Assembly: GCA_012799455.1 (NCBI GenBank)
Contig: JAAZLE010000031.1
Span: 1 to 38,022 of the forward strand
Direction of reading: 5' to 3'
Length of the DNA stretch: 38,022 nt
From: Clostridiales bacterium
Lineage (GTDB): Bacteria; Bacillota; Clostridia; Christensenellales; DTU072
Below are positions 10,450-26,138 of this stretch, one piece after another. The notes under the pieces were generated by a model. That model searched no databases, was not told where the DNA came from, and worked only from the letters and a program-made list of their open reading frames with translations. Every line of letters starts with the position of its first letter. The stretch's first letter is position 1. Made by a program: the position numbers and the translations under genes.

Positions 10450-11142
10450 ATGGATATCGCTGCTTATATAACAGCTAGTTTTTCCGTTATTAGCGGAATT
10501 TTATCAGGTTATTTCAATAGGTTGAATAGACCAATGGCAAGAACTTCTTTTAAAACATTGGGTTCTGCGCTATTTATCGCAACAGCAATACTTTCGTTTT
10601 TTAGTAGAGGTTTTTTCAACTCATACTTTTTACTTGTTTTGATTGCTCTATTTGCAGGAATGTTAGGCGATATTTTTCTAACTTTAGATCAGATAGTGCT
10701 GGCCAAATTTAAACCCTATTTTATTGCAATCGGTGCTGCTTGTTTTGCTGTTGGACATGTTTTGTTTTCAGTTATATTTATTTATGTAGCTGGGACATTT
10801 AATTATTGGTTATTATTTATCCCTGTCGCATTCACAGCATTATTTGTCCTAATAACCATTATATTTAAATTCAAGTTAGGCAAGCTTAGAATTCCTATGT
10901 ATGCTTATGCTCTATTTTTATCAGTTATGCTGATAGCTGGGGTAAATATGTTTATTATAAACACTTCATCAGTGTTTTCTATATTAGCTTTAGTGGCGGC
11001 GATACTCTTTGTTATTTCAGATACAATAATGGGCTTTAAAAAGTTTACGGATAACGAACAAAATCCTCTACATGTTTATTCAATATTAGTTACATACTAT
11101 ACAGCACAAAATTTGTTTGCCCTATCCATTCTATTTTTCTAA
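10450..11142 (+). CDS. YhhN-family lysoplasmalogenase-like membrane protein
   Basis: A 230-residue integral membrane protein with about eight hydrophobic segments. The conserved polar residues of the YhhN/TMEM86 family are present inside the membrane: Gly-Asp at 73-74 (MLGDIFL), Gly-His at 102-103 (AVGHVLF), Ser-Asp at 190-191 (LFVISDTIMG) and the YYTAQ motif at 216-220. The family hydrolyses the vinyl-ether bond of lysoplasmalogens, releasing an aldehyde. Plasmalogens occur in many anaerobes, which agrees with the Clostridia-like background. It has a strong GGAGGAG ribosome site and lies 60 bases upstream of tcdA in the same direction. Confidence 0.82.
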   Translation: MDIAAYITASFSVISGILSGYFNRLNRPMARTSFKTLGSALFIATAILSFFSRGFFNSYFLLVLIALFAGMLGDIFLTLDQIVLAKFKPYFIAIGAACFAVGHVLFSVIFIYVAGTFNYWLLFIPVAFTALFVLITIIFKFKLGKLRIPMYAYALFLSVMLIAGVNMFIINTSSVFSILALVAAILFVISDTIMGFKKFTDNEQNPLHVYSILVTYYTAQNLFALSILFF

Positions 11143-11986: not shown

Positions 11987-12643
11987 ATGGCAAAAATTAA
12001 AGCAGTGTTATTTGATTTAGATGGCACTTTAGTAGATACTTTTTGGGACTTATATGATGCAACAAATTATTCTATGAGTAAAACACATAACCCTACAAGA
12101 ACAGAAAGTGAAATCAAATCATTTGTGGGAAAAGGAGTTACTAATCTAGTACATAGTGCATTAGGGGAGAATGTTGCATCTCAAAAAGAAGCAAGAGAAT
12201 ATTTTATTGAGTATTATAACTCCCACTTAACAGCAAAAAGTCTTCCCTATCCAGGCATACGAGAATTAGTGGATACACTCCTTAAAGATGGATATCTTTT
12301 AGGTGTCGTCACTAACAAGCGAGAGCACTTAGCTGTCAAAATCATAGACTTCTTCTTCAAAGACAAGTTCGGTGCAGTCGTTGGTGAAAGGAAAGGTTTT
12401 CCCGCTAAACCTCATCCAGAAATGATAGAAAGAGCTTTAGAATTGCTGGGCGTAAGCTCTGATGAAGTCGTATTTATAGGCGACAGTGAAATAGACTATT
12501 ATACAGCTATTAATTCAAATGTTACTTCAATTATTTGCACCTGGGGTTTTACCGATAAGGCTGATTTAATTAAGTTATCACCAAATTACATTACAGACCG
12601 CCCATTAGATGTTTTAAACATATTAGACTCGCTGCAAAAATAA
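11987..12643 (+). CDS. HAD-superfamily phosphatase, phosphoglycolate phosphatase (Gph)-like
   Basis: A 218-residue HAD hydrolase with an alpha-helical cap. Motif I is FDLDGTLVDT, with nucleophile Asp10 and acid/base Asp12. Motif II is VVTNK, motif III the Lys of KPHPE, and motif IV GDSEIDY. The overall pattern fits the Gph/PpaX group, which removes phosphate from phosphoglycolate or pyrophosphate-like small molecules; specificity cannot be assigned. AAGGAG precedes the ATG. Confidence 0.87.
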   Translation: MAKIKAVLFDLDGTLVDTFWDLYDATNYSMSKTHNPTRTESEIKSFVGKGVTNLVHSALGENVASQKEAREYFIEYYNSHLTAKSLPYPGIRELVDTLLKDGYLLGVVTNKREHLAVKIIDFFFKDKFGAVVGERKGFPAKPHPEMIERALELLGVSSDEVVFIGDSEIDYYTAINSNVTSIICTWGFTDKADLIKLSPNYITDRPLDVLNILDSLQK

Positions 12644-12717: not shown

Positions 12718-12775
12718 AATTTTCACCAAACATTCAACTATTGATATGTATGTTATTCATAATGCATTGTTATCA

Positions 12776-12781
12776 TATAAT
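12776..12781 (+). promoter_or_regulatory. -10 box of the putative small RNA
   Basis: A perfect TATAAT with a weak TTATTC 17 bases upstream (12753-12758). The predicted start at about 12788 coincides with the first base of the 5' hairpin of the RNA described next. Confidence 0.5.
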
Positions 12782-12787
12782 CAACCT

Positions 12788-12923
12788 AGCAGTCTTATTT
12801 TCCCCCATACTAAAAAGATTGCTGGTACCACTTGCAGTTACTATATGTAACAACAAAAATTTTTAATAATTTCTCAATCCCTCCTCCACAAATGAAGAGC
12901 ACGCAAGTGGGCTCTTCTTTTTT
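12788..12923 (+). ncRNA. Putative C-rich small regulatory RNA with intrinsic terminator
   Basis: The 323-bp gap between convergent genes (HAD and histidine kinase) holds a free-standing RNA-like unit. Hairpin 1: AGCAGTCTT (12788-12796) pairs with AAGATTGCT (12815-12823), nine pairs with one G-U, and its loop shows TTTTCCCCC. Hairpin 2: GTTAC/GTAAC (12837-12851). Then comes an A/T-rich unpaired stretch with CCCTCCTCC (12879-12887), which could pair with a Shine-Dalgarno site. The end is GAAGAGC/GCTCTTC plus six T (12894-12923). The terminator loop GCAAGTGG (12903-12910) is exactly complementary to CCACTTGC at 12828-12835. No open frame is evident. Confidence 0.55.
12894..12923 (+). terminator. 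Intrinsic terminator of the small RNA
   Basis: GAAGAGC (12894-12900) and GCTCTTC (12911-12917) enclose a 10-base loop and are followed by six T. The T-run is on the plus strand only, so this hairpin does not serve the convergent histidine kinase gene. Confidence 0.8.
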
Positions 12924-12966: not shown

Positions 12967-14484
12967 TTAATCTTCGATTATTTCTGGAAACTTATCTAAG
13001 TCCATAAATCTTGGATCCAACTTTGGTAGTTCTATGTAAAAGGTGCTTCCCTCACCTACAGATGTGTTTACACCATAAACTCCCCCTGGATGCATATTCA
13101 TAACCGATTTCACAATTGAAAGACCAAGACCAGTACCAACTACTGCTCGCTTATGAGACTTAGCGGATTTATAATACCTATCCCAAATGTGAGGTAAAAT
13201 ATCCACGTCTACGCCTTCCCCATTATCTATAACTTCTACCCTTACATTTAAACCGTTTGTTGTTTGTCTGACCCATACAGTTTTATCTGCTCCTGCATAG
13301 TTAACAGCGTTATTTAAAAGATTGTATATTACCTGTATAATTTTACCTTCATCTGCATATACAAAGGCCTCATCTTCATGCTCTAGTATTAATTTATAAC
13401 CTTTGGCTTCTAAAAGCTTTCCATGTATTTTTAATGGCTCCTCCAAAGCCTTAACTAAATCAAATACTTTTATCTTTAATCTGTCTCCACCATCTTGAAG
13501 TCTTGACAGGTCTAACATATCATTGACTAGCCCTGCTAATCTTGTAGTTTCATCTATGATTACCTGAATGTTTTCAGGGGTTGCTTCGCCAGGAATATCT
13601 TTCATCATCTCGCTATAACCTTTTATCAATGCAAGTGGGGTCTTAAGGTCATGAGATACATTGGCTATAAGTTCTCTTCTGTACTTTTCTAGTTTGTTTA
13701 ACTCTTTGGATGCATAATCTAAGGACTGTCTTAAATCGTCTACTTCTTTATATGGCCTATTTATTACATCAAACTCCGCATCACCTCTAACTATATCTTT
13801 AGATGCTTCACTTAAGGTAACAACAGGTCCTATTAAGTTTTTAGTAATCGCCCTTATTATTAAAATCCCAAAAATAACAACAAGCACTGAAAGAGAAATT
13901 AAGTGATATACGAGAGTATTTACCTCTGCCATAGATGGAGAACAGACGCCTTCTACTACCACTAAATAACTAATATTACTTGTATCTTTAACTATTTTTG
14001 CATAAACATATGAATCTCTAGGTTTTGCGCTAGATCTTGGCACTCGCCCTTCGTAATTGTCTGGATCATATGCAGTGCCTGCGTACTGTCCCTCCACAAT
14101 TGATTGATATGTTTTTTCATCATTATTTCTAGCTAAATTATAATACTCACTTGTTGGTCTACTATGCATTTCGCAGCCACCAAAAATATGTTCTGAAATT
14201 ATTGGGTCATCTATTGCTCCTACTTGTGACACTATAATACAAACATTTCTTCCATTACTAATACGGTGCGCCAAAATAGCGAGTTCTTCGCTATCAATGT
14301 TTTTTTCAATAATACTAACTTGTTTTTTCACATTGTTTACTTGGGAAGTTTCATAAAAAGGAAGTAGCAACAAAAATCCAAGTAACCAAGTGATTACTAG
14401 GATAATGAAAATGTATACCGAAATTATAACAGCAATCCGCTGAGATGCTGTCAGCATTCTTTTTGATTCTTTTTTATCCCTCAA
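12967..14484 (-). CDS. Two-component sensor histidine kinase
   Basis: A 505-residue membrane kinase with TM1 at about 15-42, an extracellular sensor of about 145 residues, TM2 at about 189-211 and HAMP at about 211-262. HisKA carries the phospho-acceptor His278 in NVSHDLKTPLALIKGY. The HATPase domain has the N box VIYNLLNNAVNYAG, the G1 box DNGEGVD and the G2 box GTGLGLSIV. It autophosphorylates and passes phosphate to the response regulator encoded just upstream, whose 3' end overlaps this gene by 11 bases (translational coupling). The sensor has cysteines at about 81, 104 and 181 but no domain I recognise, so the signal is unknown. The neighbouring HtrA-like protease suggests envelope stress. 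Confidence 0.93.
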   Translation of the reverse strand: MRDKKESKRMLTASQRIAVIISVYIFIILVITWLLGFLLLLPFYETSQVNNVKKQVSIIEKNIDSEELAILAHRISNGRNVCIIVSQVGAIDDPIISEHIFGGCEMHSRPTSEYYNLARNNDEKTYQSIVEGQYAGTAYDPDNYEGRVPRSSAKPRDSYVYAKIVKDTSNISYLVVVEGVCSPSMAEVNTLVYHLISLSVLVVIFGILIIRAITKNLIGPVVTLSEASKDIVRGDAEFDVINRPYKEVDDLRQSLDYASKELNKLEKYRRELIANVSHDLKTPLALIKGYSEMMKDIPGEATPENIQVIIDETTRLAGLVNDMLDLSRLQDGGDRLKIKVFDLVKALEEPLKIHGKLLEAKGYKLILEHEDEAFVYADEGKIIQVIYNLLNNAVNYAGADKTVWVRQTTNGLNVRVEVIDNGEGVDVDILPHIWDRYYKSAKSHKRAVVGTGLGLSIVKSVMNMHPGGVYGVNTSVGEGSTFYIELPKLDPRFMDLDKFPEIIED

Positions 14485-15142
14485 ATCGATATCCGACTCC
14501 CCTTACTGTCACTATCATATCAGCGCACTCACCTAAACTTTTACGTAGTAATTTTACATGGGTGTCGAGAGTTCTATCGTCTCCATAAAAATCATAACCC
14601 CATACTTCATTAAGTAACCTTTCCCTTGAAAGAGCTATACCTTTATTTCGCGCTAAAAATGTAAGCAAATCATATTCTTTAGGAGATAACTCAATTCTCT
14701 CTCCAGCCACATGTACAATGTGCCCTAAAAAATCAATCTTTAGTTTGCCTGCCTCAAATATGTCTTTAGGAACTCCACCTGAAGTAGTCCTATTCATAAC
14801 AGCTTTTATTCTTAACATGACTTCCTTATTATCATAAGGTTTCTCAATATAATCATCCACTCCAATTTCAAAAGCATTAATTTTATCGTAAGGCTCTGTT
14901 CTTGCAGATAGCATAATAATCGGAATATTTGAAAACTTCTTTATTTCTCTAACAGCAGAAAATCCATCTAACGCAGGCATCATTACGTCCATAATAACGA
15001 TATCATAGTCGCCATCTCTAACCTTTTCGATAGCTTCAAAACCATCTCCTGCCTCACCTGTAGTGAAACCCTCAAAATGACAATATTTTACTAGCATTTG
15101 TCTAATTTCTGGTTCGTCATCAACGATTAATACTTTATACAT
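14474..15142 (-). CDS. OmpR/PhoB-family response regulator
   Basis: A 222-residue regulator. The receiver domain (1-115) has the acidic pair Asp8/Asp9, phospho-acceptor Asp52 (IVIMDVMMP), Ser79 and Lys101 (EKPYD). The C-terminal winged helix (about 130-222) has the SPKEYDLLTFLARN, DDRTLDTHVKLLRKSL and VRGVGYRF signatures of PhoB-type DNA binding. The GGAGG ribosome site gives a clear start. It is co-transcribed with, and overlaps, the histidine kinase gene. Targets are not visible. Confidence 0.95.
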   Translation of the reverse strand: MYKVLIVDDEPEIRQMLVKYCHFEGFTTGEAGDGFEAIEKVRDGDYDIVIMDVMMPALDGFSAVREIKKFSNIPIIMLSARTEPYDKINAFEIGVDDYIEKPYDNKEVMLRIKAVMNRTTSGGVPKDIFEAGKLKIDFLGHIVHVAGERIELSPKEYDLLTFLARNKGIALSRERLLNEVWGYDFYGDDRTLDTHVKLLRKSLGECADMIVTVRGVGYRFEG

Positions 15143-15265
15143 TACGTCCTCCTACGAAAAAATCATATCTTCTTAAACTGTTATGTTTTAATTATACACT
15201 ATTTATTTCCGTTTTCATATTGTCATATGTTTAAGAGCACATTCCAACATTCAACGTTTATATAC

Positions 15266-15301: not shown

Positions 15302-16507
15302 TTAATTATCACAGTACATCTTTTGAGTTAAGGTTAACTTCGCAGTATAGGTATTTCCATTCCTCACATATACAATATCTATGGTGTCGTTAACAATATG
15401 ACTATTTAACACCCTTTTCCATTCTTCTCTTGTCGTCACCGTTTTACCTGCAACTGTCACAATATAATCGTTTGGATTAAGTATTGATTTTCCCGTATCA
15501 TCTCTTGTCACGTATAGACCTATCATAGGTCTGTTTCCAGATGTCTTAGTAACCTCAGTAAAACCAATAATGTTGTGATCTACTCTTTTATCTACATAAT
15601 TTTTTTCTATAAGCTGCCTTGCTACATTCAAGCACTTATCAGCCCTGCAAAAATATGATATACCTGCTCCAGACTCTCCAGCCTTTCTAGAATTAACTAT
15701 ACCTATTAGCGCACCATACATATTGAAAATACCGCCACCAGAATTCCCTGGATTCACAGCTACCGTCGTTCTTTCAACTTCTAGGTCGATGTTATTAACT
15801 ACAACTTCTTCATCTGTCCCAGATAAAATCCCATGGCTGACTATTTGGCTAGTTGAATTCATAGGATATCCTATCATAATTAATTCTTCTGCCATATTTA
15901 TGTTATAGTTTTTGCTCACTACCGCTTGTATTGCCTTAGTATCTAAATTTATCTTAAGTACTGCAGTATCTGTTACCGCATCTCCCTTAAAACTTTGTAC
16001 AGGATATTGTAGACCATTTTTCATAGTGACTATAATATCACCTTCTGGCACTCCTTTAACAACGTGATAACTTGTTAAAATTTCCCCTTCGGCACCTATG
16101 ACTACTCCGCTTCCTACCCCTGAGTTAAGTTCGATATTATTTTGTATTTCGCTTTTACTATACCCTGTTGATATTTTGACAATAGATGGTGATACTGCCT
16201 CATACACACTGGCAGCACTCATTTTTTCACCTGGCTGTGTCATAGCCACTCCACTTTCTCTTGGGTCTACATAAACAACTGTATTTTTCTCGAGGGGAAC
16301 ATTAAGTTTAGCTTTATCACTAGCTATTTTTGCACCTAAAAACCCTGCTCCTACCATGCCACCGAGAACGAGAATTAAAAACACCGCAATAGTGCCAATA
16401 GACAACCTTTGTTTTACAACAACCACATTCGGCCTTTTTGAACGTGCCTCATATGTAAGTCTTTTGGCATTTCCATACGTATATCTTTCGTTATCTGATC
16501 TGCGCAT
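15302..16507 (-). CDS. HtrA/DegP-like membrane-anchored serine protease (S1C)
   Basis: A 401-residue protein with a basic cytoplasmic N-terminus of about 35 residues, one transmembrane segment (36-58), a trypsin-like protease domain (about 98-290) and a C-terminal PDZ domain (about 305-398). The catalytic triad is His148 (TSYHVV), Asp180 (VTDTAVLKI) and Ser256 (NPGNSGGGI). HtrA proteins degrade or refold damaged proteins outside the membrane. AGGGGA precedes the ATG. It lies directly upstream of a two-component system on the same strand but is separated from it by its own terminator. An envelope-stress link is inference from position. Confidence 0.92.
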   Translation of the reverse strand: MRRSDNERYTYGNAKRLTYEARSKRPNVVVVKQRLSIGTIAVFLILVLGGMVGAGFLGAKIASDKAKLNVPLEKNTVVYVDPRESGVAMTQPGEKMSAASVYEAVSPSIVKISTGYSKSEIQNNIELNSGVGSGVVIGAEGEILTSYHVVKGVPEGDIIVTMKNGLQYPVQSFKGDAVTDTAVLKINLDTKAIQAVVSKNYNINMAEELIMIGYPMNSTSQIVSHGILSGTDEEVVVNNIDLEVERTTVAVNPGNSGGGIFNMYGALIGIVNSRKAGESGAGISYFCRADKCLNVARQLIEKNYVDKRVDHNIIGFTEVTKTSGNRPMIGLYVTRDDTGKSILNPNDYIVTVAGKTVTTREEWKRVLNSHIVNDTIDIVYVRNGNTYTAKLTLTQKMYCDN

Positions 16508-16628
16508 ATTCCCCTATAATATATAATATCTATATTTTAATGCTTCTATTCTATACTAACACCTTGAAATTAAAATGAACAGATTGTGATTTTTAATAAC
16601 AAAACATTCACTTTTGCTTGTAGCAATA

Positions 16629-18100: not shown

Positions 18101-19483
18101 TTAGTTTTTAGCTTTTTTATCGTAATATTTTTCAACATATTCATCCCTAATTCTTTTCATTTCATTTCTAGGTAGAAGCCTTAGAAGATCCCACCCTAAA
18201 TCTAGCGTTTCTTCAATACTTCTATTCTTATGGAACCCTTGATTTATATAATTTTTCTCAAACTCATCTGAGAATTTAGCAAACTTTCTGTCAACTTCTG
18301 TTAATGCTGCTTCGCCGAGTATAATACTTAATTCTTTTGCTTCTTTTCCTCTTGCATATGCACTAAATAATTGGTTCATAGTGTCTGCATGATCTTCCCT
18401 TGTTTTCCCCTTACCGATTCCTTTATCTTTAAGTCTGGAAAGAGATGGTAGCACATTTATTGGTGGCGCATAACCTTGCTTATATAACTCACGACTTAAA
18501 ATAATCTGTCCCTCAGTAATATATCCCGTTAAGTCTGGAATAGGATGGGTTTTATCATCTTCTGGCATTGTTAGAATAGGAATTAGTGTTATACTTCCTA
18601 CCTTTCCTTGAATCCTTCCTGCTCTTTCATACAGTGAAGCTAAGTCCGTGTAGAGATAACCTGGATATCCTCTTCTTCCTGGGACTTCTTTTCTTGCAGC
18701 ACTAACTTCTCGTAATGCTTCGCAATAGTTAGTAATATCTGTCATTATTACAAGCACATGCATATCGCACTCGAAAGCTAAGTACTCAGCCGTAGATAAT
18801 GCCATTCTAGGAGTAGCTATTCTTTCAATTGCTGGGTCATTTGCTAAGTTCATAAATAGAACAGCTCTTTCTATAGCACCAGTTTTCTTGAAATCTTGAA
18901 CAAAGAAATCTGCCTCTTCAAAAGTAATGCCAATTCCCGCAAACACAACTGCAAACTTACTATCACTACCCAAAACCTTTGCTTGTCTAGCAATTTGCGC
19001 AGCTAACTCTGCGTGTGGAAGCCCTGAGGCACTAAAGACTGGTAGTTTTTGACCTCTAACCAGTGTGTTTAATCCGTCTATAGCACTTACACCCGTTTGA
19101 ATAAACTCATTAGGATAATCTCTTGCAACTGGATTTATTGGGCTACCGTTAACATTAACCCTCTTTTTGGGTATTATCGGAGCTCCATCATCTTTAGGAT
19201 TTCCCATACCATCGAAAACCCTACCCAACATATCTTCACTAACTGCGATTTCTAGTCTTTTTCCTAAAAATCTTGCCTTCGAGGTAGAAATTCTGAGACC
19301 CGCAGAACCACCAAATAACTGTACTAGGGCCTTGTCTCCATCTATCTCTAACACTTGGCCATTTCTTAACTCGCCATCTGCTTGCTCAATTAAAACAAGC
19401 TCGTCGTATTTAACATTCTCTACACCTTCTACAAGTACAAGCGGTCCTACAACTTCTTTGATTGTTTTATATTCTTTTAACAT
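18101..19483 (-). CDS. ntpB: V-type ATPase subunit B (non-catalytic)
   Basis: A 460-residue non-catalytic head subunit. The P-loop position holds SASGLPH (151-157) instead of a Walker A, as in all B subunits. Other landmarks are [18 protein letters not shown] and [12 protein letters not shown], whose arginine reaches into the catalytic site of subunit A. Length matches the family (about 460). The gene starts 28 bases after ntpA with a GGAGAAGGA ribosome site. Confidence 0.97.
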
Positions 19484-19511
19484 CTTTCCTTCTCCTATGA
19501 TGCCTTTATTA

Positions 19512-21269
19512 TTAGCCTATTAGTTCTGTAAATGCCCTTTTAATCTCATGTTCTATTTCATCAAATGCTTTCATATTATCTTCGGTAATATACTTTGATC
19601 TACCTATTCTTTCTACCACAGGTAAACTAATAATTTCATTTATTTCCACATTATGATTAAGAGCATTGAGGCCTTGATCGTGGAAGAATAATATTAGTTT
19701 TAGCATCCTTAACTGCTTCTTTAAGGAGGCGTATGTATCTACTTCATGGAATGCATTTTGATGCAGGTAGTCTTCTCTTAAGCTTTTCGCTGTCTCCATG
19801 ACTAACCTTTCTCTATCACCTAACGCATCCATACCAACAAGCCTGACTATCTCTTCTAGACTAGATTCTTCTTGTAAAAGTCTCATACCCATTGTTCTTA
19901 AACCATTCCATTCTTGGCCTAACTCTTCGGTATACCAACTACCAAGTTTTTCGGTATATAATGAATAACTTTTCAGCCAATCGACAGCTGGGAAGTGTCT
20001 TCTGTATGCTAGTGCTGCACTTAACCCCCAGAAAACTTTTACTATACGTAAAGTAGCTTGCGAAACTGGCTCTGACAAGTCTCCACCTGGAGGGCTGACT
20101 GCACCTATCGCTGTAACACTGCCTACTATACCAGTGCTACCTAGAACTTTTACAACCCCTGCTCTTTCATAGAATTCTGCTAGTCTACTACTTAAGTATG
20201 CAGGATAACCTTCTTCACCAGGCATCTCCTCTAAACGACCACTCATTTCTCTAAGTGCCTCTGCCCACCTAGAAGTACTATCAGCCATTATAGCCACGTT
20301 ATATCCCATATCTCTAAAATACTCAGCAATGGTTATCCCAGTGTATATGCTCGCTTCTCTAGCCGCAACAGGCATGTCGGAAGTATTAGCAATTAATACT
20401 GTTCGTTTCATCAGTGCTTCACCAGTCTTTGGATCATGTAGTCTTGGGAATTCATTTAAAACGTCCGTCATTTCATTACCACGCTCACCACAGCCGACAT
20501 AAACAATGATATCGGCATCTGCCCACTTAGCTAACTGATGCTGGACAACTGTTTTTCCACTCCCGAACGGACCTGGAACACAAGCGACACCCCCCTTTGC
20601 TATTGGGAAAAATGTATCTATAACTCTCTGCCCCGTTACCATTGGTGTGTTCGGGGGAAGCTTTTCTAAATATGGTCTAGACTTTCTAACAGGATATTTT
20701 TGCATCATTGTTACCTTGACACTTCCTTCGTCAGTCTTTATTGTTGCAACTGTCTCTTCTACGGTAAACTCGCCTTTTTCTATACTTTCAATTTCACCCT
20801 TTAGTCCAATGGGCACCATTATTTTGTGCCTTATTACTTTATTTTCCTGCACAAACCCAAGCTCGTCTCCAGAAACTACCTTTTGACCGACCTTGGCTGT
20901 AGGGTTAAATTTCCACTTCTTTTCTCTATTTAATGCTTTAGCAACAATTCCTCTACCTATTCTGTCTCCACTAGCTTGCTTTATAATCTCTAAAGGTCTT
21001 TGGATACCATCATAAATAGATTCAATTAAACCAGGTCCCAGTTCAACACTTAATGGCTCGCCCGTTGACTCGACTGGTTCTCCAGGCCCAATTCCTCCAG
21101 TTTCTTCATAAACCTGTATAGAAGCCCTGTCGCCTCTAAGCTCTATGATTTCACCTATGAGGTTTTCCTTACTTACCCTAACAACGTCAAACATTTTACT
21201 GCTTGCCATGCCTTCTGCTACTATCAATGGCCCACTTACTTTTACAATTTTTCCAACTGCTTCTTTCAT
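19512..21269 (-). CDS. ntpA: V-type ATPase subunit A (catalytic)
   Basis: A 585-residue catalytic subunit. Walker A is GPFGSGKT (233-240) and the catalytic glutamate is Glu262 in GCGERGNEM. The non-homologous region specific to V-type A subunits lies at about 115-190. It hydrolyses ATP in alternating A3B3 sites and drives ion pumping; synthesis in the reverse direction is possible. Length is normal (about 590). GGAGAG precedes the ATG. Confidence 0.98.
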
Positions 21270-21300
21270 TGTCTCTCCTAATATATGTTTAATTTACATC

Positions 21301-21624
21301 TTATTTGATGTCTAGTATATTTACACCTATAGCTCTTTCTACATTAGATGATATGTTTTTCATTCCATACCCTGTACTTCCCTGTGCGCTTGGTATAGGC
21401 AGTATTATCGGATATGGCTTGGTTCTGTACCTGTCTATTACATCTTCTATTTTTTTAGCAAAATCTTCGGTTATAAGTATGATAGAATATGACCTTGCCA
21501 CTTTTTTTAGAGTCTCCACTGCTTCAAAATAATGAGTGACAGGAAAAGTTTCCACCCCTACCGCCTTAAATGGTAGTATGTTATCTTTTTGTCCTATAAT
21601 CGCCATTTTATTATTTCTATCCAT
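21301..21624 (-). CDS. ntpG: V-type ATPase subunit F (rotor)
   Basis: A 107-residue small rotor subunit (NtpG in the E. hirae naming) that binds subunit D. The fold is recognisable from MAIIGQKDNILPFKAVGVETFPV-like spacing near the start and the C-terminal PIILPIPS segment. The conserved N-terminus matches family members if translation starts at Met7 (21606). The upstream ATG at 21624 is kept because AAGGA lies before it, though at long spacing. It sits between subunits C and A as usual. Confidence 0.88.
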   Translation of the reverse strand: MDRNNKMAIIGQKDNILPFKAVGVETFPVTHYFEAVETLKKVARSYSIILITEDFAKKIEDVIDRYRTKPYPIILPIPSAQGSTGYGMKNISSNVERAIGVNILDIK

Positions 21625-21656
21625 CTATACCAAAATCCTTACTCTTTGTTTTATAG

Positions 21657-22634
21657 TTATATGTATAACTGCCTTACTCTCTTTTCCATTTCAGCCTTAG
21701 GAACATTATTTTTCTTACACACAAGTATCACTCTAATTACCTTGATTTCATTTAGTTTACCAACGTAATAACCAATTATTGGAGCCGCACTTAACATATC
21801 TGCTTTTTTTGTAGCAAATAGTTTTATTAAATAGTTATCCTGCTCTGCTTCATATATTGCAAGGTCTACTCCACTTGCCTTGTCATAAAACTCTTTGTAT
21901 ACCGTTCCTTTGAGTTCTTTTTCGAGTTTTTCTTTTTGACCATCAAGTTTTTTAAAAAACTCAAGCGACAAATTGCCTCCTTCAACGAAGTTGGATTCGA
22001 AAAACTCGTATCCCGCTTCTATTTTCACCGATCTTAAAAAGGTCAAAATGTTCGTTGAATCAGTAAGTACCTGAAAATATTCAATTACCGCTTTATCCAC
22101 GCCACGCTCAGAAAGTCGTTCCTTTAAATCTCTAAACATGGCTTTGTCTATAGTCACATCTATAACTCTTGGGGTGCCTTTTCCTTCTTCAAATAATCCA
22201 TCGATATATTCAAAAGCTTCTTGCATATGTGGATTATCTAAACTAATTTCCTTAAACTGTTCTTTTAGCTTTGCAAGTGGTATTAATCCATAATGAGACA
22301 GTATTTTTTCTCCATCCAATATGTTTCCATATTTTTCTTTACACAGTACTTTAAGATTATGATAATCAGCCTTTAAAAAGAAGCACTCGAGCCCCATCTC
22401 CTTAGGAGTTACTTCACGCATAAACTCATAAAGTAATCTTTCTTCTTCGTGCAATATGGTATAAAAGTCATTTGGGTCAACCATCATACCGCCCGCATAG
22501 TTAATTTCAAACAAAATGCGCACAGCCTCATCTAAAGACCTTGATTCTATCATCCGTCTTATTCTCTCTTCCGATATGAAGTTGTTTTCCTTTGCCTTGG
22601 CCCTACCGTTAGCAAATAATAAGCCTGCTTTCAT
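21657..22634 (-). CDS. ntpC: V-type ATPase subunit C (c-ring adaptor)
   Basis: A 325-residue helical protein of the V-ATPase C/d family, which sits on the c-ring and couples it to the D/F shaft. The N-terminal NGRAKAKENNFISEERI and the later FFLKADYHNLKVLCKEKY are typical: the family repeats a D-x-x-N-L-K-x-L pattern. The gene starts 48 bases after ntpE with AAAAGG before the ATG. Confidence 0.92.
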   Translation of the reverse strand: MKAGLLFANGRAKAKENNFISEERIRRMIESRSLDEAVRILFEINYAGGMMVDPNDFYTILHEEERLLYEFMREVTPKEMGLECFFLKADYHNLKVLCKEKYGNILDGEKILSHYGLIPLAKLKEQFKEISLDNPHMQEAFEYIDGLFEEGKGTPRVIDVTIDKAMFRDLKERLSERGVDKAVIEYFQVLTDSTNILTFLRSVKIEAGYEFFESNFVEGGNLSLEFFKKLDGQKEKLEKELKGTVYKEFYDKASGVDLAIYEAEQDNYLIKLFATKKADMLSAAPIIGYYVGKLNEIKVIRVILVCKKNNVPKAEMEKRVRQLYI

Positions 22635-22682
22635 ACTAATTACCTTTTCTTAAATGATAAGTTCACCTAATTTTAGCTATCA

Positions 22683-23255
22683 CTAAAAAAGTTTTTCTAC
22701 TATAACTGGTTCAAACTTATCTCTTATAGTTGCCAGTTCCACTTCCAAGGTCATATTTTTATCAGTTTTTTTGCCTTCTAGTATGATACCCCCAGCAAAA
22801 TCACCATATGTTTTTGAAAGTGTTATTTTCTTTTTCGCCTTCTCACCAGCTTTTTTGATAAAGTCGCTTGTCAACAAATCTTTGTCCGACTTAGAGACTA
22901 TAACCACATCGCCATCATCTGCAGATTCAATCATTTTTTCTATGAGGCGCTTATACTTTTTCTCATCACTTTTGATGGCAGGTAAAGCGGCAGCGAAAAC
23001 CTCTGTTAAGATGTTTTGCTTGGTTTGGAGCACCATTTTTCTCGCCTCTATTTCTGCAGCTGACAGTCTACGCTTTATAATGTCCTCTCTTTCCTCATAT
23101 GATGCTTCCATCTTCTTCTTTAAATAAATATCAGCATCATTTTTGGCGATTTCAAGAGTTTCTTTAGCCTTAGCACTAGCCTCTTCAGAAGTTGTATTAG
23201 CTTTTTTCCTGGCATCCTCAATTATTTTTGCAATAATTGCTTCACGTCCGCTCAT
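22683..23255 (-). CDS. ntpE: V-type ATPase subunit E (peripheral stator stalk)
   Basis: A 190-residue protein. Its N-terminal half (about 1-100) is a long charged coiled coil rich in Lys/Glu/Ala, and its C-terminal half is a globular domain with FAGGIILEG near 155. Subunit E pairs with the small G/H-type subunit at the start of the operon to make the stator stalks that hold the A3B3 head. The gene begins 12 bases after ntpK with an AAGGAG site. Confidence 0.92.
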   Translation of the reverse strand: MSGREAIIAKIIEDARKKANTTSEEASAKAKETLEIAKNDADIYLKKKMEASYEEREDIIKRRLSAAEIEARKMVLQTKQNILTEVFAAALPAIKSDEKKYKRLIEKMIESADDGDVVIVSKSDKDLLTSDFIKKAGEKAKKKITLSKTYGDFAGGIILEGKKTDKNMTLEVELATIRDKFEPVIVEKLF

Positions 23256-23267
23256 ATTGACTCCTTA

Positions 23268-23762
23268 TTACACCCAGTTAGGAATAAACACTGCTAAGAA
23301 GCTGACTAAGAATGATAAAAGTGCATATGTTTCAACCATGGTTGTCATAAGCATACCCTTTCCGCTTTCTTCTGGTTTTTTAGCAACTAGTCCTATAGAT
23401 GCAACTGCAACATTGCCTTGGTATATAGCACTGGCAAGTCCTCCAACTGCGATTGGAATACATGCTGCCATTATCCCTAGCCCACCGCCAACACTTATAT
23501 ATGTACCAGTAGCTGGCATCATAAACCCTGCTAGAGCTTGGATTTTTATAAGGCCCATAAAGCCTACTATAAAGCCATAGATTCCCTGTGTTGCAGGTAG
23601 AAGTGTTAATAATAGACATTTCATAAACTTGTCAGGATCTTCAGCAACAACACCTGCTGCTGCTTGCGACGCCCTTGAAACGCCTATTGATGAGCCAATG
23701 CCACTTAAAATGACTGCAAGGCCAATACCAATCATTGCATAAACTACTCCCATTATTTCCAT
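23268..23762 (-). CDS. ntpK: V-type ATPase subunit K (c-ring proteolipid), Na+-type ligand set
   Basis: A 164-residue membrane protein made of two fused helical hairpins (four TM helices), like the 16-kDa NtpK of Enterococcus hirae. All side-chain ligands known for the E. hirae Na+ site are present by alignment: Leu55, Thr58 and Gln59 in LLPATQG, Gln115 in AIYQGNVA, and the ion carrier Glu144 in MVETYA. The inferred coupling ion is therefore Na+ rather than H+. AAGGAGG precedes the ATG at good spacing. Confidence 0.95.
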   Translation of the reverse strand: MEIMGVVYAMIGIGLAVILSGIGSSIGVSRASQAAAGVVAEDPDKFMKCLLLTLLPATQGIYGFIVGFMGLIKIQALAGFMMPATGTYISVGGGLGIMAACIPIAVGGLASAIYQGNVAVASIGLVAKKPEESGKGMLMTTMVETYALLSFLVSFLAVFIPNWV

Positions 23763-23903
23763 GTGTAAAACCTCCTTATATTGGTTTGTTTATGTTATTT
23801 TAACCTTTCGGTTTGTTTCCTGTTTTTATATTAATTTGGACCTCTGTTTTAATTATCCAAATCGATTTCTTTCCTATCCTCTATATCAGTTTGAACCTAT
23901 ACT

Positions 23904-26138
23904 TTAGTTATCCAAATATGTATACTTCGTTTTATATCCTAGTGGCTGGAAGGCTCTGCCACTTCCTTCATAGAATCTTCCAAAGAATTCTACATAATGA
24001 AGTCTTGCGTTATGTACATATGCACCTAATAAATTAATGCCTAAGTTAAACGTATGACCTATTACTAGTATTGGGATTGCTACCAGCCAGCCTATCCATA
24101 GTCCACCAAATATTAGATTAACAATTATGCCTCCGAGCATGTTTAGAGCATAACCTATAACACCAGATGTTAAACCTAAACCAAATAATCTTGAATAACT
24201 CAGCAAATCGCTAACTACATTTATACTTCCGTACATATTCCCAAGCGCACCAGTAACCATTTTAAATGGATTTTTCTTTCCGATAGCGCCACCAATTATT
24301 AACATAACAACGCCTACTAAAGCTATGTAGGTTCCTACCTTTGCAGATACCCCATACCATGCTGGCACCGGGTCAGGATTAATTGCACCTAAGAACACCA
24401 TCAAGTTAGGATAATAACAAAAAACTGCAACAAATAATACTGCCCAACTAAATTGGTTAAATATACCATACAATGCTCTTTTAGCTTTTATTTCTGCTAC
24501 ACCTTTCAGTATAAAGCCCGTACCCAAATGAAGTAGTCCTACGGCAATACCTACAACAAATAACATTAGCGGCCTATCCATAGGGTTAAACCATGTAAAG
24601 TAACGCAAGAAAGTTTTTTCTGGTGATATGCCAAACCAGCTTCCAAATAGCGCGCCCCAGATAATTGTGCTTATTCCACAAAAGGCAAACATCCATATCA
24701 TCTTGCCACTGTCCTTTACAGGTTTTACAACTCTTATAAAACCAAAACAGGCAAGAGCCATCAATATCCCGTATCCTGCATCACCTAACATAATTCCAAA
24801 TATTAGGAAATAAAAGAATGCAACAAATATAGCGGGGTCCCTTTCTCTATAATTCGGGACGCCAAACCCATTTGTTATCCCTGTAAACGAATCTGCAAAT
24901 TTATTGTTTTTAGTTAGCGTTGGCGGATTTTCAGTCTCTAAAGGTTCTCTGAAAAACACTTCTGTTCTTTTACTTTTTTCTTCTATTAACTTTGTTAATT
25001 CTTCCACCTTTTCGCTTGGAACCCAACCTTCCATTAAGAATGCTTTTTTTGTACCAGGACTATTTTCCATACAAGTAATCTTTGCAATCTCAAGCATGTA
25101 ATTATCATAAAGCACTTTAAACTTATATAGATCAGGCAAATAATTCATAGCATCACTATATTTTTGTTTTCTAGAAACCTCAAGACATTCGAGTTTTTCA
25201 TTTATTTCGTTAATAACCTCTCTTGCCGTCCTATCATCAGTAAATGAGCATCTAGAAAACTCGCACTCATTTAATATTATTCTCGCTTCTTCAGTCCTAT
25301 CTTTATGACACATCATAAAAAACGGCCTTGCTTGCTTCCCTTCAAAGTCTTTTATAACACCAATTTCGGATACTTTTTCTTTTAATAACTCAAGTTTTGA
25401 GGCTGGCACCAGTCCAAAAAATGATACTGTTGATTTTGTATTTTTAACACTTGAAAATCTTATATCTGCATCAACGTATGGTTTATACTGCTCGAGCTTT
25501 GCAATTTCTCTCGCTTGTTCGCTCTTTAAGTCAATTAAAAAACCATTGATATCTTCTAACTCTGAAACAATAGCTAAAATATCCACTTCGTCTTTAGCAA
25601 GGTCTTCATACTCTTCTAATGTTACTAACTTGTTTTCCCTTTTAAAATTGGCTTTAGGTAAAGAATACTTGCTATCTTTTTTCCTTAAAAACAACTTCTT
25701 AATATCAAATGCACTAGCTTTATCTAAATCTTCGCTACCTTCTTCTTGGATATCATCTAATAAGCCTTGCTCACTTACGTCAAATGCCTTATCTTTACTC
25801 TCTCCTTGCTGGATATCACTTTGCCCTAATGTTTTATCAACTTCTGTCCCAGATTTTATAGATTGCTTTTTATTTTTAGCATCTTCTTTTTCATCCCTTT
25901 TCAGTTGGGTTTTTTGCTTTATGTACATTTCTCTTAAAAATGTAATAGCAAAACTTAACTTGAGTAGTTTCCCTTCCACTACAGATCGACGCTCTCTCAT
26001 ATCGGGATAACTTGTTAACTCGAGTAAGTCTTTAGACACTATCTCAACATAGCCTGCATTAAGAAACAGCTTCATAAGTCTAGCTTCTTCGCTAGCATGT
26101 GCTATTAAATTCATCTTATGCATACTTACTATAGCCAT
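23904..26138 (-). CDS. ntpI: V-type ATPase subunit I (membrane a-type subunit) with an enlarged N-terminal arm
   Basis: A 744-residue protein. The N-terminal cytoplasmic arm (about 1-390) is coiled-coil rich. The C-terminal half has about seven or eight TM helices from 425 onward and includes the half-channels, with conserved stretches IFGIMLGDAGYG, SDLLSYSRLFGLGL and YVHNARLHYVEFFGRFYEG. It carries ions between the c-ring and the two membrane sides. Residues about 78-170 form a highly charged low-complexity insertion (many Lys, Asp, Glu, Ser), which makes the protein about 80-90 residues longer than typical NtpI. GGAAGGG precedes the ATG. Confidence 0.95.
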   Translation of the reverse strand: MAIVSMHKMNLIAHASEEARLMKLFLNAGYVEIVSKDLLELTSYPDMRERRSVVEGKLLKLSFAITFLREMYIKQKTQLKRDEKEDAKNKKQSIKSGTEVDKTLGQSDIQQGESKDKAFDVSEQGLLDDIQEEGSEDLDKASAFDIKKLFLRKKDSKYSLPKANFKRENKLVTLEEYEDLAKDEVDILAIVSELEDINGFLIDLKSEQAREIAKLEQYKPYVDADIRFSSVKNTKSTVSFFGLVPASKLELLKEKVSEIGVIKDFEGKQARPFFMMCHKDRTEEARIILNECEFSRCSFTDDRTAREVINEINEKLECLEVSRKQKYSDAMNYLPDLYKFKVLYDNYMLEIAKITCMENSPGTKKAFLMEGWVPSEKVEELTKLIEEKSKRTEVFFREPLETENPPTLTKNNKFADSFTGITNGFGVPNYRERDPAIFVAFFYFLIFGIMLGDAGYGILMALACFGFIRVVKPVKDSGKMIWMFAFCGISTIIWGALFGSWFGISPEKTFLRYFTWFNPMDRPLMLFVVGIAVGLLHLGTGFILKGVAEIKAKRALYGIFNQFSWAVLFVAVFCYYPNLMVFLGAINPDPVPAWYGVSAKVGTYIALVGVVMLIIGGAIGKKNPFKMVTGALGNMYGSINVVSDLLSYSRLFGLGLTSGVIGYALNMLGGIIVNLIFGGLWIGWLVAIPILVIGHTFNLGINLLGAYVHNARLHYVEFFGRFYEGSGRAFQPLGYKTKYTYLDN

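Follow-up and report, generated by a model that had tools for sequence, protein, structure and literature searches.

A conserved small RNA gene with a predicted anti-Shine-Dalgarno segment and an htrA-type promoter module in uncultured Clostridia

The window, the whole 38,022-nucleotide stretch of DNA analysed here, holds an intergenic gap bounded by a HAD-family phosphatase gene (+, end 12643) and a sensor histidine kinase gene (-, end 12967), for which a free-standing small RNA between convergent genes had been predicted from the letters of the sequence. The two genes do face each other across the gap, and all listed elements of the candidate were found in place (Table 1). We confirm 12783-12923 (+) as a real, free-standing small non-coding RNA (sRNA) gene. 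It has the traits of intergenic trans-acting sRNAs, namely a promoter of its own, an intrinsic terminator, conservation and the lack of coding capacity, and its predicted fold is more stable than those of 200/200 shuffled sequences (z -3.4).

Table 1. Coordinates of the sRNA gene, its elements and the neighbouring genes in the window
Feature	Position	Strand	Remarks
HAD-family phosphatase, syntenic neighbour	11987..12643	+	Pfam HAD_2
Direct repeat TTCAC-CAAACA-TTCA, two TTCA 11 bp apart	12722..12736	+	Predicted response-regulator box
Third TTCA, at the -35 box position	12756..12759	+	20/20 copies
Conserved extended -10 TGTTATCAT	12768..12776	+	TANNNT 20/20, TG 19/20
Predicted sRNA, ~140 nt	12783..12923	+	Start from -10, end from terminator
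5' hairpin, CCCCCAUAC in loop, genus-specific	12787..12824	+	Fold prediction; loop kept
CCACUUGC, complement of terminator loop	12828..12835	+	At least 7 pairs kept in 19/20 copies
CAAUCCCUCCUCCACAA, predicted anti-Shine-Dalgarno seed	12875..12891	+	Invariant, identical in 20/20 copies
Intrinsic terminator; loop with GCAAGUGG (12903-12910)	12894..12923	+	4/7 stem pairs with two-sided changes
Sensor histidine kinase, last gene of operon	12967..14484	-	HisKA, HATPase_c
PhoB/OmpR-family response regulator, predicted activator	14474..15142	-	Response_reg, Trans_reg_C
HtrA/DegP-like membrane-anchored serine protease	15302..16507	-	Trypsin_2, PDZ_2, degP_htrA
htrA promoter box ATCA-N7-TTCA-N7-TTCA	16565..16590	-	TAGAAT 15 nt from third TTCA; same module in relatives

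Relatives were found by BLAST, followed by a family pattern search over 40 genomes. This yielded 20 copies of the sRNA in 17 genomes of three related genera of uncultured Clostridia, both gut and environmental; the carrier genomes are mostly MAGs, and the relatives are not independent of each other. The 17-mer CAATCCCTCCTCCACAA occurs in 17 of the 40 family genomes, that is, in all genomes of the three genera and in none of eight others, once or twice per carrier genome, and a reversed-pattern control gave 0 matches. A near-match to the 17-mer in G023 proved to be unrelated sequence and was attributed to chance. Scanning the GTDB species collection for exact matches returned the same genomes, including Candidatus Stercoripulliclostridium and other Clostridia MAGs, as well as further scattered matches that do not have the surrounding sRNA elements. 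Other exact matches to an 18-mer, in GTDB species genomes and viral contigs, lie in unrelated sequence without a terminator and were dismissed as chance. Trained on the 20 copies, a covariance model gives E values of 3e-12 or below in the carrier genera and stays at chance level in 396 genomes of the order. Distant members within the order were rejected, with E values of about 1e-3 or weaker; those inspected were mostly ordinary terminators without the full element set, some of them on the opposite strand. One distant match (L228) has plus-strand TGTGGAGGAGGGAT next to a terminator.

The genomic surroundings are also retained. The HAD gene adjoins one sRNA copy in 17/17 genomes in varying orientation, and the kinase gene is adjacent to the sRNA in 4 genomes. 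Three genomes carry a second copy away from the HAD neighbour; these copies (L035 in G032, L043 in G030 and L045 in G026) combine another 5' half with the same seed and terminator module. A search of Rfam found no family at the gathering threshold and nothing above chance at permissive thresholds, and no paper describing this sRNA was found in the open-access literature.

Comparison of the copies revises the promoter. TCAC-N7-TCA is kept in 20/20 copies, and TANNNT lies exactly 15 nt from the start of the third TTCA in all of them, placing the -10 element at 12771-12776 and therefore the predicted start of the transcript at about 12783. The TATAAT pointed out in the original prediction (12776-12781) is present and overlaps TGTTATCAT, but its position is not conserved, with a TANNNT 20 nt after the third TTCA, near the TATAAT site, in only 5/20 copies, and it is probably not the -10. 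The 5' hairpin, which had been thought to start at +1, likewise exists but begins about 4 nt past the revised start. None of the 20 sRNA promoters has a -35 box, as expected for an activator-dependent promoter.

The same TTCA-N11-TANNNT module precedes the operon whose last gene is the kinase. The gene order htrA-response regulator-kinase is retained in relatives, and TTCA elements in 11-bp steps followed by N11-TANNNT stand upstream of the operon in 13 of the 14 readable genomes with the sRNA. TTCA-N11-TANNNT keeps one offset throughout, in the sRNA promoters (20/20) as in the htrA promoters (13/13). By automatic count, NTCA triplets in 11-bp steps precede htrA in 11/14 sRNA-carrying genomes, with a Markov-control mean of 0.01, and in two more genomes (G001 and G002) once their TTG starts are allowed; TTCA triplets were found upstream of none of 29 other window genes. 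A box derived from the sRNA promoters matches the sRNA promoter and the htrA promoter and nothing else in the 38 kb of the window, two matches where 0.37 are expected. The sRNA promoters do not have the middle TTCA of the htrA triplet in register. In every sRNA-carrying genome searched but G014, the composite promoter pattern picks out the sRNA; in G014 the htrA box is unrecognisable as well. The two promoters have a presumed regulator box in common. A kinase orthologue is present in 15/15 sRNA-carrying genomes searched, and the operon or a kinase orthologue also occurs in some genera without the sRNA.

In two genomes (L247, G013:C10:12600-14300; L248, G037:C14:1-1600), a gene for a multi-span membrane protein of ~490 aa has a TTGACA...TATAAT promoter with a TCACCAAANTTTCAC box upstream, and possibly belongs to the same regulon. 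Upstream of the response regulator gene, 15200-15262 (-) contains GTTGAATGTTGGAATGTG; this sequence is related to the box in inverted form, has AACATTCAAC in common with the sRNA promoter and may be a second, internal operon promoter. Near the stress operon, the gene cluster at 18101-26138 (-) reads by eye as a V-type ATPase.

Within the sRNA, the unpaired segment said to mirror a Shine-Dalgarno site is borne out as both invariant and mostly unpaired: the 17-mer, with CCCTCCTCC at 12879-12887, has a mean unpaired probability of 0.59-0.99 when the terminator is formed. Its core CCCUCCUCC is the exact complement of strong ribosome sites, on which the sRNA would act in trans. Genes with GGAGGAGG-N2-11-ATG are not commoner than in the reversed-pattern control, and the screen yielded no set of targets conserved from one genome to another. 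The idea that the 17-mer has one extended target was rejected, counts of near-complements being similar in genomes with and without the sRNA. Two weak leads may be recorded. One is a transketolase subunit in the window's genome, and the other is a YhhN-family membrane protein (10450-11142, +) with the ribosome site GGAGGAG, whose -18.4 kcal/mol duplex with the seed is the strongest among the window genes tested.

The original prediction depended on the conservation of its hairpins and C-rich segments in relatives; among the copies, the C-rich segment is invariant, the terminator covaries and the loop pairing is kept. The clean terminator consists of GAAGAGC (12894-12900), a 10-nt loop, GCTCTTC (12911-12917) and a T run, and was missed by a simple terminator scan because the loop limit of the scan is 8. 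Scored on the 20-sequence alignment, covariation lies above 500/500 shuffles and the number of pairs with two-sided changes above 499/500, and all slid controls are lower. The 5' hairpin of 10 bp (12787-12796/12815-12824) does expose CCCCC (12802-12806) in its loop, but this loop is limited to the window's genus, where two other species retain CCCCCAUAC on a replaced stem. The C-rich 5' loop probably represents a second site particular to that genus; the family-wide features are the anti-Shine-Dalgarno segment and the terminator-loop pairing.

In the latter, GCAAGTGG (12903-12910) is exactly complementary to CCACTTGC (12828-12835), as had been noticed in the window, and 99% of alignment cells pair in this helix. 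Its covariation consists of one pair, which is A-U in the window's genus and G-C elsewhere, a two-sided change. The two partners can be written as CNCUUGC and GCAAGNGG. In the large genus the upstream segment reads CGCUUGC, and most copies there place it inside, or directly beside, the loop of a hairpin of its own, so that a loop-loop contact could exist alongside the terminator. If loop-loop energies are ignored, 5/20 copies, among them the 3 of the window's genus, are predicted to favor the long-range pairing over the terminator fold; in the remaining copies the pairing is about level with that fold or weaker. We think it unlikely that the terminator loop and upstream CNCUUGC form an exclusive switch, in which their pairing would open the terminator stem or mask the seed. 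If they did, the sRNA would govern its own termination or activity atop transcriptional control, and the terminator would double as a sensor.

The closest known counterparts are sRNAs under two-component control. The csRNAs of Streptococcus have C-rich anti-Shine-Dalgarno seeds that pair with mRNAs, are controlled by CiaRH, and possess an 11-bp direct repeat about 10 bp before the -10 that is bound by a regulator also controlling htrA (PMC3091779). Like the csRNAs (RF02379), the sRNA described here is short, intergenic, terminator-ended and, in some genomes, present in more than one copy, presents a mostly unpaired segment complementary to Shine-Dalgarno sequences (CCCUCCUCC), and follows an 11-bp repeat, with a spacing of 11 to the -10 and a predicted regulator tied to htrA. 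Judged by sequence, it is an analogue of the csRNA/CiaRH system and not a member, since its model score is far under the threshold (17.7 bits against a gathering value of 57, E 3.2-5.6) and the repeat differs: the CiaR box is NTTAAG-N5-TTTAAG, while TTCA-N7-TTCA plus TTCA-N11-TANNNT is found here in similar geometry. The host is of another bacterial class, and the conserved terminator-loop pairing and the kinase gene adjoining the sRNA in some genomes are features of the present family that set it apart from the csRNAs.

The LhrC sRNAs of Listeria monocytogenes are made under cell-envelope stress in dependence on LisRK, and carry C-rich UCCC motifs in loops and a linker (PMC4132741). LhrC1-5 resemble the present sRNA in being multicopy and C-rich; a two-component dependence is predicted here from the promoter. 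LhrC1-5 differ in having three UCCC sites instead of one long invariant seed and in their promoter element, and the window contains no Rfam family at gathering. The original prediction had compared the sRNA with RsaA and RsaE; the working principle of RsaE/RoxS and RsaA of Staphylococcus and Bacillus, a C-rich segment aimed at ribosome sites, does apply, but there is no Rfam match at gathering, and the two-component-controlled csRNA and LhrC are the better comparators. The promoter logic of RsaE/RoxS and RsaA is different. In Bacillus, the two-component system CssRS controls the htrA protease in secretion stress, and we know of no anti-Shine-Dalgarno sRNA in its regulon. The difference here is that htrA, regulator and kinase form one operon, which the sRNA adjoins in some genomes.

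Our favored reading, to which we give a probability of about 70%, is that the sRNA is activated by the response regulator and, in envelope or secretion stress, keeps mRNAs that have G-rich ribosome sites from being translated; the stress signal is one that we infer from HtrA alone. The response regulator of the htrA operon would bind the TTCA direct repeats in place of a -35 box and activate its own operon and the sRNA alike, such that a failure of envelope folding or secretion would raise HtrA protease and sRNA simultaneously. Selected mRNAs would be bound by the unpaired CAAUCCCUCCUCCACAA at their G-rich ribosome-binding sites (GGAGGAGGG) through base pairing, and the resulting block of translation would lower the load. 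Contact between the terminator loop and upstream CNCUUGC, in a loop or linker, would give a compact fold that may protect the RNA or set the exposure of the seed.

Other explanations must be weighed against this. The sRNA could be real and yet use its invariant C-rich segment to bind a protein, or to mimic the 16S rRNA tail and titrate something. Such a role would account for 17-20 invariant nucleotides, which exceed what an anti-Shine-Dalgarno match needs, and for the failure to find a conserved or enriched set of mRNA partners. A search of 38 family genomes found no Hfq, so that any pairing would be Hfq-independent or proceed via another chaperone, and a partner outside the known ones is conceivable. 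We nevertheless regard this explanation as improbable, given the exact and mostly unpaired complement to strong ribosome sites and the mRNA pairing of similar C-rich stretches in csRNA, LhrC and RsaE (PMC3091779, PMC4132741).

It is very improbable that the sequence is a small protein gene, or that it belongs to the HAD gene as a cis-acting element or its 3' UTR. The window and several relatives do place the sRNA downstream of the HAD gene on the same strand, but in many copies that gene is oppositely directed, the sRNA has its own conserved promoter, and the second copy in three genomes has no HAD neighbour; no small reading frame is conserved on either strand across the copies. Somewhat less probable than a protein-binding or titrating role, though well ahead of a cis origin, is activation of the sRNA by a different PhoB-family regulator, for example in phosphate control, with the likeness to htrA reflecting a DNA motif common to the whole regulator family. 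The box TTCACAAAACATTCA resembles the E. coli Pho box, and PhoB is the best NCBIfam match of the neighbouring regulator, but the score of 198.6 bits is under the cut-off of 296.2. No sRNA-carrying genome searched had PstB over its cut-off, and the window's genome yielded no PstS; a role in the phosphate regulon was rejected on these grounds, and is unlikely despite the PhoB-like regulator. The offset to the -10, equal to that of the htrA promoters, and the adjacency of the genes in 4 genomes also speak for the regulator of the htrA operon.

If activation by the htrA-linked regulator and blocking of ribosome sites hold true, the sRNA represents an unlisted family of uncultured Clostridia in which an anti-Shine-Dalgarno RNA has independently been coupled to a two-component stress system with htrA. 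With no Hfq found in its hosts and a conserved terminator-loop pairing, it would offer a test case for sRNA action free of Hfq. Streptococci (CiaRH-csRNA) and Listeria (LisRK-LhrC) likewise couple two-component systems with C-rich RNAs, and three separate cases would suggest that RNAs blocking ribosome sites have been recruited repeatedly into the envelope and secretion stress responses of Gram-positive bacteria, as a counterpart to the outer-membrane sRNAs of E. coli.
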